DNA of 64,000 nucleotides from Hahella sp. HN01 (GTDB lineage: Bacteria; Pseudomonadota; Gammaproteobacteria; Pseudomonadales; Oleiphilaceae), in NCBI RefSeq assembly GCF_018986435.1, contig NZ_JAHMIN010000002.1, positions 12,503-76,502 on the forward strand, read 5' to 3'. Both the position numbers and the translations under genes were made by a program. Under the pieces are notes generated by a model. The model did no database searches. It was not told the DNA's origin and was given only the letters and a program-made list of their open reading frames with translations. Shown one piece after another: positions 33,251-61,056 of the stretch. Within the stretch, counting starts at the first letter, position 1, and every line of letters starts with the position of its first letter.

Positions 33251-35020
33251 TTACTCCATCAGGCGATGTAATGCGTCATACTCGTAAGTGACCAGCACAA
33301 TGACGTCGCCGTCTTCGCCCTGGGGTTCGGCGTCCACGGAGTAACGTTCCAGATAGACGTAATCCAACAGCCCATCCTCCCGATACACGTAGTGTTCGCA
33401 CCATTCGAAACCGGGGTCATGAATGTCGGTATAACGTCGGGCCAGTCTGCGGCCCTCGGCGTCGTAGGTAAAGTTGGAGGTCGCTATCTCGCACCCCGGC
33501 TCCGTAACGCAGGAACTCTCCGGCCTGTCCGTAAAGGTGCGCATGCCGTTCAGTCTGCCGTCGCTGGCGTAGGCGTATTGCGTGTTCAGCTTTTCCAGAT
33601 TGTTATCGTAGGTGTCATTGGACAAATGTCCGTCGCCGTCAAAGACGAAAGCGCGTTTGACCAGCACCTGATTGTGGGTCGCGCTGTCGGTAGAATAAGA
33701 ATTGATGCGCACGAGCCCCGCGCCTGCGTCTTTTTGCGGTCTCATCTGGCCGGTAACCGTCTCGCTGGTGCGCTGGCTCAACACGGCGTCGCCGACCTTA
33801 CTGAACGTTTCCACCCAACGACCGCGATCCAGCGCCAAAGCGTTGACGACGTCCCACTCGCCGTCCGCGGGCGAAATTTCCGTATACAACGGGTCCAGGG
33901 TCAGGGAGGAGACATAGGCGTCCAGAGACAGGGCGCGACGGCTCATATCCACGCCGCCATCCAGACGCACCGCCGCCACCGCGCCTTTGGAATCGTAGGT
34001 CAGTCCGGCGCGACCAACGTGCTTGCGTTGGGGGTCCTGTACGCCGGCGAGGGCGAGTAGCTTCACATCGTTGTCATTGCGTCCCTCCAGCGCCGCGCTT
34101 TCCGTGTCCGGATGCACGTACCAGTTGATTTGCTTGATCGAAAGGGGATCGTTAAGGGCATTTTCATACTGCAGCGATGTTTTCCAGAGAGAGAAATCAT
34201 AGGCCGCAAAGTCTTCCGTGGAGCGTATATCCTTCATGACGCCCGCCGCCGCATAGGCGATTTTCGGCGCGTTGTGCAGCAGACTGGCGCCCATGACTTT
34301 CACTTTGGTGGCGTCCAGATTGTCGAGACGCTGGGCGGCGTCAATACTTTGCGCCTCTTCCGTCATCATGTTCTGTAACGCCATGGCGAAAGCCTTGGCG
34401 TAGACGTGGTGGCGATACTGTCCGCTTTTGACGTAATCGAACAGATAATTGTTGTTGAAGCCCACCCGCTCACGGGCGCGCTGGTGCGCCTGCTCGACGG
34501 TGGCTTCCGGGTCTTCCTCCCGCATCAGGTCGTACTGCATGCGCACCAGCGTGGTCAGCGGGGAAATGACCGGGCTTCCGGGCGGCGCCATCAGAAAATA
34601 GGCTTTATCCACCAGTCCCGGTTCGCTGGACGCGCAATCCGTGGCGGGAGGGACGGCGGCGTTCATCAGGTCTTCATCCTGAGTGACGCAGGGAAGCGCG
34701 TAGGCCATGAGCGGGTATAGCTTGGGGTCGTCCACGCCAGCCAGTTGTTCCGCTGTGAATTCATACTCTCCGCCGGCGCCGCTCATCACTGCAGGCTCGT
34801 CATCGCCGGCGAGATAATCTCCATTCAAATCCAGCCAGACTTTGGCCTGACGCAGATAACCGTCCAGCACTACACCGTGAAAGTTGGCGTTGGGCGGCGG
34901 CGGTTGCTCCGGCTCGCGAGGGTCGCGCAGAGTGGATACATCGGATTTATCGCCGCCGCAGGCGCTCAGAAGCGGCGTCAGCAGGCTGACGATAAGCAGT
35001 GCGCCACAGTGGATTCGCAT
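33251..35020 (-). CDS. lipoprotein with C-terminal YD/RHS-like repeats, 589 aa
   Basis: Lipoprotein signal ending 'LLTPLLSAC' (Cys21), so membrane-anchored. A Pro-rich linker is followed by a Ca-binding-like loop, 'VWLDLNGDYLAGDDEPAV', of the kind seen in surface proteins with a carboxypeptidase-regulatory-like domain. The middle is not recognised. The last ~130 residues contain several YD-type units ('FVFDGDGHLSNDTYD', 'YAYASDGRLNGMRTF', 'FTYDAEGRRLARRYTD', 'YVYREDGLLDYVYLE', 'YEYDALHRLME'), as in RHS/YD-repeat proteins. No toxin domain follows; the protein ends in the last unit. Probably cell-surface; role unknown. Confidence 0.75.
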   Translation of the reverse strand: MRIHCGALLIVSLLTPLLSACGGDKSDVSTLRDPREPEQPPPPNANFHGVVLDGYLRQAKVWLDLNGDYLAGDDEPAVMSGAGGEYEFTAEQLAGVDDPKLYPLMAYALPCVTQDEDLMNAAVPPATDCASSEPGLVDKAYFLMAPPGSPVISPLTTLVRMQYDLMREEDPEATVEQAHQRARERVGFNNNYLFDYVKSGQYRHHVYAKAFAMALQNMMTEEAQSIDAAQRLDNLDATKVKVMGASLLHNAPKIAYAAAGVMKDIRSTEDFAAYDFSLWKTSLQYENALNDPLSIKQINWYVHPDTESAALEGRNDNDVKLLALAGVQDPQRKHVGRAGLTYDSKGAVAAVRLDGGVDMSRRALSLDAYVSSLTLDPLYTEISPADGEWDVVNALALDRGRWVETFSKVGDAVLSQRTSETVTGQMRPQKDAGAGLVRINSYSTDSATHNQVLVKRAFVFDGDGHLSNDTYDNNLEKLNTQYAYASDGRLNGMRTFTDRPESSCVTEPGCEIATSNFTYDAEGRRLARRYTDIHDPGFEWCEHYVYREDGLLDYVYLERYSVDAEPQGEDGDVIVLVTYEYDALHRLME

Positions 35021-35511
35021 GGTGTTCCCTGTCCTTTTTGTTTTTGTGAGCGAGTCAATCTAGCGGGGAGCAAGCGGAAATTCGTTGATAGGCTTAACAA
35101 ATGCTTACAAAGGGCGAAAGTAGGGGAAAGAAGGCCGACGGCGTCTGGCGTGCAGACAAAAAAATGCCTCGCTTCCGGGGTGTCCCTATTAAAAAGTCCA
35201 TCCTGGTCCCATCGCGAGGCTTAAGGCACGAGCGTAGAGGTAACAGTCGTTGTACAAAAGAAGTACCCTGACTATTGATGAAGAAACGTTAAGCCTGTAA
35301 CAACTTAGCGAAATCTCTTCACCCTGTTTATCGCACAGACTGTGCCAACCTTGCTGCACCTTATTAACCAATTGATAAATATGTATTTTATTTGATTTTG
35401 CGTAGATTTTACGGAGATTGAAGGGAAGATATCGTGCCCTAAATCTAATCCTGACTGCTCCATTACGGTGCATTTTGTCTCTTTGGACAGGTTTTAATAT
35501 TTGGACCGGTT
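35021..35511. other. intergenic region of 491 bases with a candidate RNA gene
   Basis: Between the lipoprotein gene and the membrane protein gene, both leftward. The region is AT-rich (especially 35360-35420) and contains the GGA-rich terminator-ended hairpin at 35158-35220. A TGTAAG half-site is on the minus strand at 35103-35108. I find no convincing protein gene; the open frame at 35189-35617 has no ribosome site and overlaps the membrane protein gene. Confidence 0.6.
35158..35220 (-). ncRNA. candidate small RNA or mRNA 3' element: GGA-rich hairpin with terminator
   Basis: On the minus strand GCCTCGC (35220-35214) pairs with GCGAGGC (35172-35166), followed by A and seven Ts (35164-35158), as in a Rho-independent terminator. 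The 41-base interior is too long for a plain terminator loop. It carries five GGA motifs, including ACCAGGATGG, where CCA/TGG can close a hairpin with GGA in its loop, the classic CsrA/RsmA-binding form, plus AGGGAC and CCGGAAG. It lies 290 bases past the upstream gene, so it is more likely a free-standing transcript end. Start point unknown. No RNA family was confirmed. Confidence 0.45.
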
Positions 35512-36231
35512 TTAATGGCGGGGGGCGTCCAGGTGCGGGCGCTGACGATAGCCCAGACGACGCCAGATCATGGCGGTGAAGGCGAAATAGGTGGTCATGC
35601 TGGATGCAAAAAACCACTCAATGACATTCTCCCAACGATCCTTCGCGGGATTTTGCAGTACCAGGCTGTTGGCGACGCTGGCCAGACCCAGCGCCAGCAT
35701 CCACCAACATAGCCAGGATTTCGCCCGCAGCCATGTCTGCACGCGGACGCTGGCGGGCCAATCGGAGGTGCGCGACAGGGTCAGGAGACTTCGCAATAAC
35801 AGCATCTGCGCCAGCACGGTGAAAGAGAAATAAATGGTGACGCCGTACTGGCGCAACAGTCGGTAAATGCGTCCGTCCACGCCGAGGAAGTCTGCGTATA
35901 ACACCAGAAACAGCGCGCCGATGGCGCCCAGGCACTGCATGGCGCGGACTACGCTGCTCGAAGACTGATGCAGCTTGAGGAAAGCGCCTGCTTGTAACCA
36001 GAAGGCGAGCAGTAAGACAGCGTGAATGATCATGCCGGCGCGAAACAGATACAGGGCGTCGCTGGAGCGCGCCGCTTTGCTGATGGACACGCAACCGTCC
36101 CAGTACGGCAGACACCCATCGATGGCGCCGAGCAGAGTGCTCCACAGCCAGGCGGCATGGGCCACCAGCACAGGCAGTAAAAAATTGCACCAGGCGATTC
36201 GCTGCGGTTGCATGGCGGCCCACTTTGGCAT
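35512..36231 (-). CDS. multi-pass membrane protein, possibly Frag1/DRAM-like, 239 aa
   Basis: About six membrane segments are visible (for example 'FLLPVLVAHAAWLW', 'AGMIIHAVLLLAFWL', 'CLGAIGALFLVLYADFLG', 'VTIYFSFTVLAQMLLL', 'SWLCWWMLALGLASVAN'). The pattern 'GCVSISKAARSSDALYLFR' after the first helix resembles the 'ISdtG...P...lF' region of Frag1/DRAM/Sfk1 proteins, but the match is loose. Function unknown. It is divergent from the M14 deacylase gene at 36312. Confidence 0.7.
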   Translation of the reverse strand: MPKWAAMQPQRIAWCNFLLPVLVAHAAWLWSTLLGAIDGCLPYWDGCVSISKAARSSDALYLFRAGMIIHAVLLLAFWLQAGAFLKLHQSSSSVVRAMQCLGAIGALFLVLYADFLGVDGRIYRLLRQYGVTIYFSFTVLAQMLLLRSLLTLSRTSDWPASVRVQTWLRAKSWLCWWMLALGLASVANSLVLQNPAKDRWENVIEWFFASSMTTYFAFTAMIWRRLGYRQRPHLDAPRH

Positions 36232-59430: not shown

Positions 59431-61056
59431 ATGCACTTTAGACGTTTCAAAATCGGTCATCGCACCGCCGCCGGGTTTGTGGTCGCTCTCGCCTTTATTC
59501 TCGGTCTGGGCTTGTTCTCATTGAAGCAGATGTCGGCGATCGCGCAATCTTCCGCTGAAATTGCGGAGGACTGGTTGCCGCGCCAGCGGGTATTGGGAGA
59601 GATCCAGTCGTCCCTGAATTTTTTCCGCACTCAGGAGCTGCTGCACGTAATGGCGGAGTTCAATCAGGAAATCATCGACGCCGATGAACGCATGAAAGCC
59701 GCCCAGGATAAACTGGAAGGATTGATGGCGGACTACAAGAAAATGCTGGATTCCGACCAGGAGAAAAACCTGTTTGAAACCCTGACCGCCTCCTGGAAGA
59801 GCTATCTGGAAACCCACGACGAAATGATAGGTTTATCCCGGGTAAAATTTAAGGAAGAAGCGCGCGAGATGATGACCGGGCCCAGCAATGAAAGACTGGA
59901 GCAGCTGCGCAAGGTTTATGTGGATCTGTCCGACTATGTGGCGTCCGGCGCCGACTCCGCCAAAGGCCGCGCCAGCGAACTGTACGCCGCGACCAAGGAA
60001 CTGATGATAATCGCTATCGCGCTAGCGGCGGTGATCACTTTCACCTTCGCGCTGGTGCTGACCCGCAGTATCAACAAACCGCTGAAATCCGTACTGTCCG
60101 CCGCCCGGCGCATCGCCCGCAACGACCTGACCCAGACAATCGAAGTGGAAGGCCAGGATGAGATTTCCGACCTGCAGAAAGCCCTCGCGGAAATGCAGGA
60201 TCGATTGCGTAAAACCCTGCAGAAAGTCACCTCGGCCGCCTCTCAGGTGGCCTCCGCGTCGGAGAATTTGAACTCGCTGACGGAGGACGCCACCAACGCC
60301 CTGAATATGCAAAACAGCGAAATTCAGATGGCCGCCACCGCCGTCACGGAAATGTCCACTGCCGTGGACGATGTGGCCAAGCACGCCAACGACGCGTCGG
60401 AGGCCTCGCAAGCGGCGGAATCCGCGTCCACCAGCGGTCGCAAGCAGGTGGGCGAAACCAAGCAGTCTCTGGAAGAGTTGACCAATTCCGTCACCAGCAC
60501 GGGAGAAGAAATTCAGGCGTTGGCCACCCAGGTGGGAGAAATCAGCCGCGTGCTCGACGTGATTGGCTCCATCGCCGACCAGACCAACCTGCTGGCGCTT
60601 AACGCCGCCATTGAAGCGGCGCGGGCGGGAGAGCAGGGACGCGGCTTCTCGGTGGTGGCGGACGAAGTGCGCGCACTGGCCCATCGCACGCAGGAATCCA
60701 CCCGTGAAATCACCCAGATGATCGACAATATTCAAAGCGTCACCCGCAACGCGGTGAGCTCCATGACCGCCAGCAATGAGCACACGCATAAAACCTTGTC
60801 GCTGGCGGAAGCGGCGGATGGCGCGTTGGAGGAAATTATGCGTATGGTGGGGCGCATCAATGAGATGAATCTGAGCATCGCCAGCGCGTCGGAGGAGCAG
60901 GCGCATGTGGCCCGGGAAGTGGATCGCAATCTGGTGAATATCCGCGATGTGGCGGACCACACCGCGGAAGGCGCGCAGAAAACCTCGGCGGCGAGCCATG
61001 AGCTGGCGGATCTGGCCCAGGACCTCAACGGCATCGTCGCCGGGTTTAAGCTGTAG
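59431..61056 (+). CDS. methyl-accepting chemotaxis protein
   Basis: A 541-residue transmembrane chemoreceptor. TM1 is about residues 12-30 ('[19 protein letters not shown]'), a ~155-residue periplasmic four-helix-bundle-type sensor follows, TM2 is about 188-208 ('[20 protein letters not shown]'), then a HAMP domain ('[18 protein letters not shown]'). The cytosolic signalling hairpin tip '[20 protein letters not shown]' binds CheA/CheW. There is no C-terminal CheR/CheB-binding pentapeptide. ATG 59431 follows CGGGGTTGTGAAC; ATG 59314 would add 39 residues that do not fit the family. Signal unknown. Confidence 0.95.

Follow-up and report, generated by a model that had tools for sequence, protein, structure and literature searches.

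The stretch of Hahella sp. HN01 DNA analysed here (64,000 nt, referred to as the window) contains a 491-nt gap at 35021-35511, in a locus that lies between an AstE/AspA-like gene and an SMP30/strictosidine-synthase-like gene. The two genes bordering the gap, 33251-35020 (589 aa, lipoprotein-like) and 35512-36231 (239 aa), both on the minus strand, had no Pfam match; relatives of the 589-aa protein are encoded in Hahella sp. CCB-MM4, Hahella ganghwensis and Hahella MAG PL25b_bin.18 (PL25b), and a relative of the 239-aa protein in H. ganghwensis. The initial annotation of the gap described a minus-strand hairpin with a perfect 7-bp stem, a 41-nt interior containing five GGA motifs and a T7 tail, and this description proved accurate. 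Positions 35220-35166 of the minus strand read GCCTCGC-(41 nt)-GCGAGGC, followed by ATTTTTTT, with the stem arms GCCTCGC and GCGAGGC at 35214-35220 and 35166-35172 and the T7 at 35164-35158. The 64 kb hold a single 55-nt element of this form, and none of 100 shuffles has one. Given its composition, the hairpin by itself has no more than moderate stability (z -1.8), and a simple terminator scan missed it because its loop exceeds the 8-nt maximum that the scan allows.

The hairpin had been regarded as standing alone in the gap. Instead, a conserved unit extends from a sigma54 promoter at 35347-35333 to position 35158, with the hairpin at its 3' end; as judged from the sequence, a longer sRNA gene is predicted at about 35322-35158 of the minus strand, with the hairpin as its intrinsic terminator. 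The earlier proposal of a terminator-ended sRNA encoded on this strand is thereby upheld, but its length is corrected from 63 to about 165 nt. The features of the locus are as follows:

35158-35322, minus strand: predicted sRNA gene, about 165 nt, 5' end accurate to +/-2 nt; from the identity profile in four species, the eight homologues and the fold
35158-35220, minus strand: intrinsic terminator (the hairpin of the initial annotation), with 7-bp stem, 41-nt interior and T7 tail
35182-35208, minus strand: 27-nt insertion in the terminator loop, seen in the H. chejuensis-like clade only; from the alignment to the covariance model
35223-35247, minus strand: invariant 25-nt core ACTGTTACCTCTACGCTCGTGCCTT, the proposed base-pairing seed; identical in 8/8 homologues from two genera
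35242-35276, minus strand: stem-loop SL2, AAUAGUC/GACUGUU plus GUAC/GUAC; from the consensus fold of eight sequences
35278-35322, minus strand: 5' stem-loop SL1; from the fold, its first base being exactly the promoter-predicted start
35333-35347, minus strand: sigma54 -24/-12 promoter TGGCACAGTCTGTGC, its form kept in 8/8 homologues
35457-35471, no strand assigned: NtrC-type palindrome, read on the minus strand as GCACC-GTAAT-GGAGC, with 1 mismatch to GCACC-N5-GGTGC

Related whole genomes were searched at the DNA level with the full 491-nt gap as the query, and the deepest conservation was found directly upstream of the hairpin, outside its interior. The eight homologues compared below come from the window's genome, six more Hahella genomes (among them H. 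ganghwensis, CCB-MM4 and PL25b) and one MAG of a sister genus in the same family (Gammaproteobacteria MAG 6_bin.2). In each of these genomes the sRNA gene is present once, in a similar neighbourhood. The gene next downstream varies, being lipoprotein-like in the window, convergent in H. ganghwensis, CCB-MM4 and PL25b, and SMP30/strictosidine-synthase-like in the sister-genus MAG; since the broader neighbourhood is partly common to the lineages, the copies are most simply regarded as positional orthologues. Against three close species, the window shows 72-79% identity ahead of the promoter, rising to 90-97% over positions -29 to -1 and to 99-100% across the 165 nt that begin at the predicted start and finish with the T7; in the next 40 nt identity drops to 53-62%. 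The conserved stretch therefore has the sigma54 promoter and the T-run as its limits. All eight homologues end in a hairpin followed by at least seven T (tails U7-U8), so that in the computed boundaries a conserved non-coding unit is enclosed by its own promoter and an intrinsic terminator.

Within the 64-kb window TGGCACAGTCTGTGC is the sole exact match to the sigma54 promoter, at a chance expectation of 0.98. Because one such match is at chance level, the evidence for the promoter is its recurrence at the corresponding place in 8/8 homologues, where the motif lies 5' of the core and predicts a start 51-90 nt upstream of it. The promoters of other homologues read TGGCACGCGCACTGC, TGGCACGAGCGCTGC, TGGCACGAGAGATGC and TGGCATCCGCTTTGC, and the same form is found at glnK of the window's genome; a sigma70 promoter scan gave no match. 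In the window the +1 position predicted from the promoter spacing falls on the initial base of SL1; in the sister-genus MAG, which has a single hairpin in place of SL1 and SL2, it is the first base of that hairpin.

The RNA is predicted to fold in the order SL1, SL2, a mostly single-stranded seed and the terminator. Fold z-scores were -5.7, -4.6, -4.1, -3.1 and -2.0, the last being that of the window copy, which only modestly beats its shuffles; in the PL25b copy the 5' part of the fold is less clear-cut. SL2 and the terminator are backed by RNAalifold, with four pairs changed on both sides, and H. ganghwensis and CCB-MM4 carry an equivalent hairpin of other sequence in the place of SL1. The stretch of the core past SL2 (35241-35221) is predicted to be mostly single-stranded, save for a weak 2-bp GC/GC hairpin, with unpaired probabilities near 1 for UACCUCUAC. 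Sequence and predicted fold together give the conserved single-stranded seed looked for in a trans-acting sRNA. The complement of the core, AAGGCACGAGCGTAGAGG (35223-35247), is similar to the -24 part of a sigma54 promoter, probably by coincidence.

Rfam scans of the window and the gap detected no family at the gathering score or at E<=10; the gap thus had no match to a Csr/Rsm family, for which an Infernal/Rfam run had been suggested. An exact search with an 18-mer of the core in 84,980 species returned four homologues and three unrelated matches, in Acidobacteria, Phycisphaerae and Halomonas, which were set aside as they carry neither the flanks of the core nor the terminator. These three lack the sRNA layout, and in the rest of the species searched the exact core occurs nowhere outside Hahella and the sister-genus MAG. 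A search of 294 genomes of the order for the core, allowing as many as 3 mismatches, gave two matches besides the window, both rejected for want of the sRNA layout, and a covariance model run on 342 genomes of the order gave two weak matches, rejected for having no core and no sigma54 site. The core was not found in the orthologous neighbourhoods fetched from other genomes of the family, and plasmids and viral contigs gave no match. No paper on an sRNA of Hahella was found in the open-access literature searched. The family is best filed as an undescribed sRNA of narrow distribution within a known kind, the sigma54-dependent base-pairing sRNA.

The centre of the NtrC-type palindrome lies about 142 bp upstream of the predicted start. 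H. ganghwensis and CCB-MM4 have 1-mismatch sites at the equivalent place, the best candidate in PL25b, found by eye, has 3 mismatches, and the sister-genus MAG has no site at up to 2 mismatches. Elsewhere in the window's genome, NtrC-type sites with 0 to 2 mismatches lie upstream of glnA and glnK: TGGCACAGCAGATGC is found at glnK, preceded by NtrC-type palindromes, and TGCACCGAATTGGTGCG and TGCACCATTTTGGTATC at glnA. Frames recognised by eye as ntrB- and ntrC-like adjoin glnA, on a contig other than that of the sRNA. Since the site is weak in PL25b and not found in the MAG, and since a single site by itself is not significant, NtrC control of the predicted sRNA is only likely; the first two of these points also make another sigma54 activator possible. 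We regard it as unlikely that the sRNA is driven by sigma54 together with an activator other than NtrC (for example CbrB or another enhancer-binding protein) and answers to a signal other than nitrogen. The imperfect site, not clear in two of the eight homologues, would fit such an activator, but 1-mismatch palindromes recur at the equivalent place in several species and are of the same type as those at glnA and glnK. It is scarcely credible that the element is a leader or attenuator, or encodes a leader peptide, of the downstream lipoprotein gene (33251-35020), which the initial annotation had mentioned as a weaker reading. That gene is on the same strand, with its ATG 138 nt downstream, and short frames exist, but H. 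ganghwensis, CCB-MM4 and PL25b have a convergent gene next to the element, and the MAG has a different one. Moreover, the core is invariant at every base, all codon positions included, and an ATG in frame before it is present in some homologues only; a small-peptide reading of the core was rejected on the same grounds.

The function put forward in the initial annotation, titration of CsrA/RsmA, is probably wrong, and comparison with relatives, which it had named as a check, gave a divided answer: a terminator stem is conserved and the GGA motifs are not. In the covariance-model alignment the 27-nt insertion is missing from H. ganghwensis, CCB-MM4, PL25b and the sister-genus MAG; it makes up most of the interior of the hairpin, and most of the GGA motifs lie in it or at its edge. 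The number of GGA per RNA is 5, 5, 5 and 5 in the H. chejuensis-like clade, 2 and 2 in H. ganghwensis and CCB-MM4, and 0 and 0 in PL25b and the MAG. Because the GGA-rich interior is mostly an insertion of one clade and the counts fall in this way, CsrA titration is, on the sequence comparison, not the conserved function; common to all eight homologues instead are the CU-rich, single-stranded seed and the sigma54 promoter. That the RNA serves to bind and sequester CsrA through its interior is thus very improbable, in spite of five GGA where composition shuffles of a 42-nt slice of the interior gave a mean of 1.27 (P(>=5)=0.0006), a ACCAGGAUGG close to the SELEX consensus RUACARGGAUGU (PMC7652899), and an insertion that is intact in four species. 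The motifs are fewer or missing in four homologues while the rest of the RNA is conserved, and the ACA element, invariant in SELEX, reads ACC here. In addition, CsrA prefers GGA that lie wholly in loops (PMC7652899), whereas in the predicted ensemble each GGA has its first G mostly paired and its A free, and two of the five have the second G paired as well. The CAGGATG that had been noted in the interior is present, but the CCA-GGA-TGG mini-hairpin said to contain it is absent from the predicted minimum-free-energy and centroid folds, where the GG of the motif is mostly paired. Multiple conserved GGA in hairpin loops, as in Csr/Rsm RNAs, were not found in the eight homologues.

The insertion (35182-35208, minus strand) is nearly unchanged in four species, though it lies inside a terminator loop. 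A dual-function RNA comparable to McaS, in which a CsrA-binding module was added to a base-pairing sRNA within the H. chejuensis-like clade, is therefore worth weighing, but we consider it quite improbable. The GGA excess and the ACCAGGAUGG motif speak for it as well, as does the existence of CsrA-binding base-pairing sRNAs that have two or more GGA, namely McaS and GadY (PMC7652899), and the insertion stays almost the same while the flanks of the gene diverge. However, because the whole transcript is equally unchanged within the clade, conservation of the insertion is not specific evidence for such a module, and the accessibility of the GGA is poor to partial. The version in which this RNA is nitrogen-responsive and its 27-nt insertion in the terminator loop became a CsrA-binding module in one clade is a distinctly long shot. 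If true, it would wire nitrogen status directly into the Csr system and would show a route from a terminator loop to a protein-titration module.

The reading that we prefer, and consider likely, is that of a base-pairing sRNA of the Hfq type which depends on sigma54, is probably activated by NtrC and blocks ribosome-binding sites with a seed containing ACCUCU. The conserved unit, promoter, fold, terminator and distribution in this reading are supported by computation, and we infer NtrC activation, Hfq binding, pairing with mRNAs and repression. According to this model, the locus is a stand-alone gene for a trans-acting sRNA. Sigma54-RNA polymerase, most likely activated by NtrC at nitrogen limitation, would start near 35322, and transcription would stop at the T7 of the hairpin. 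The RNA would fold into SL1, SL2, the single-stranded seed and the terminator, and its U-rich 3' end would probably load Hfq, which is encoded in the genome. The invariant CU-rich, anti-Shine-Dalgarno-like seed (...UUACCUCUACGCUCGUGCCUUA...) would then pair with the ribosome-binding regions of target mRNAs and lower their translation. The ACCUC within UUACCUCUACGCUCGUGCCUUA also occurs at the 16S rRNA end that carries the anti-Shine-Dalgarno sequence, and so the simplest assumption is that the seed pairs with ribosome-binding sites of the form GAGGU. Targets were sought as exact, mismatched and wobble-permitting complements of the seed in six and four genomes, with limited patterns; in these four to six genomes the numbers of matches were overall not above those of reversed-pattern controls, and no complementary site or candidate gene recurred across the deep lineages. 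Two candidates, a gene resembling urocanate hydratase (hutU) with AAGCGTAGAAGTAAC upstream of its Shine-Dalgarno sequence and a flagellin-like gene with TAGAGGTACTTCATG, recur only in close relatives and are not claimed as targets. The first of these sites (L123, G000:C62, near 60548-60562) complements 13 of 15 nt of the sRNA core and is conserved in one close species only.

Among known RNAs the closest functional analogue is NrsZ of Pseudomonas, which the Hahella sRNA, on the best reading, resembles in its way of working without being its homologue. As summarized in PMC8395346 and PMC9308961 from Wenner et al. 2014, NrsZ is an NtrBC/RpoN-dependent sRNA of 226 nt that is encoded next to ntrC and carries a ACAGGCAG motif. 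Both RNAs are intergenic and of similar size, with stem-loop domains; as to the sigma54 promoter and NtrBC control of NrsZ (PMC8395346, PMC9308961), the promoter is predicted in 8/8 Hahella-type homologues, an NtrC-type site is present in most, and NtrBC control is probable. In contrast to NrsZ, the Hahella RNA has AstE-like and SMP30-like neighbours, with the ntrBC-like frames on another contig, and ACAGGCAG is absent: the window has ACAGGCTT, which is itself missing from H. ganghwensis, CCB-MM4, PL25b and the MAG. It also has no Rfam match, another sequence and another conserved seed, its conserved part being the single 25-nt core. GlnZ of enterobacteria is, as predicted for the Hahella RNA, an Hfq-type base-pairing sRNA made at nitrogen limitation through NtrC, but it is cut from the glnA 3'UTR (PMC9731577), whereas the Hahella sRNA has its own predicted promoter and locus. 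With CsrA sponges of the CsrB/RsmZ type the RNA shares several GGA and a 3' terminator, in one clade only; its GGA are few (CsrB has 22; PMC7652899), not conserved and often predicted to be paired, and its promoter is of the sigma54 type. The Hahella RNA may combine an antisense seed with at least two GGA, as do McaS and GadY (PMC7652899); no sequence relation to them was shown, and CsrA contact of the Hahella RNA is hypothetical.

An oversized terminator loop, as this locus illustrates, can signal a lineage-specific insertion instead of a protein-binding sRNA. The sequence analysis suggests that Hahella and the sister-genus MAG possess an RNA that is probably switched on at nitrogen shortage and probably silences other messages by pairing with them. 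This undescribed sRNA family, with its clear promoter, exact predicted transcript and unusually rigid 25-nt core, offers a ready test of nitrogen-controlled riboregulation beyond Pseudomonas and the enterobacteria.
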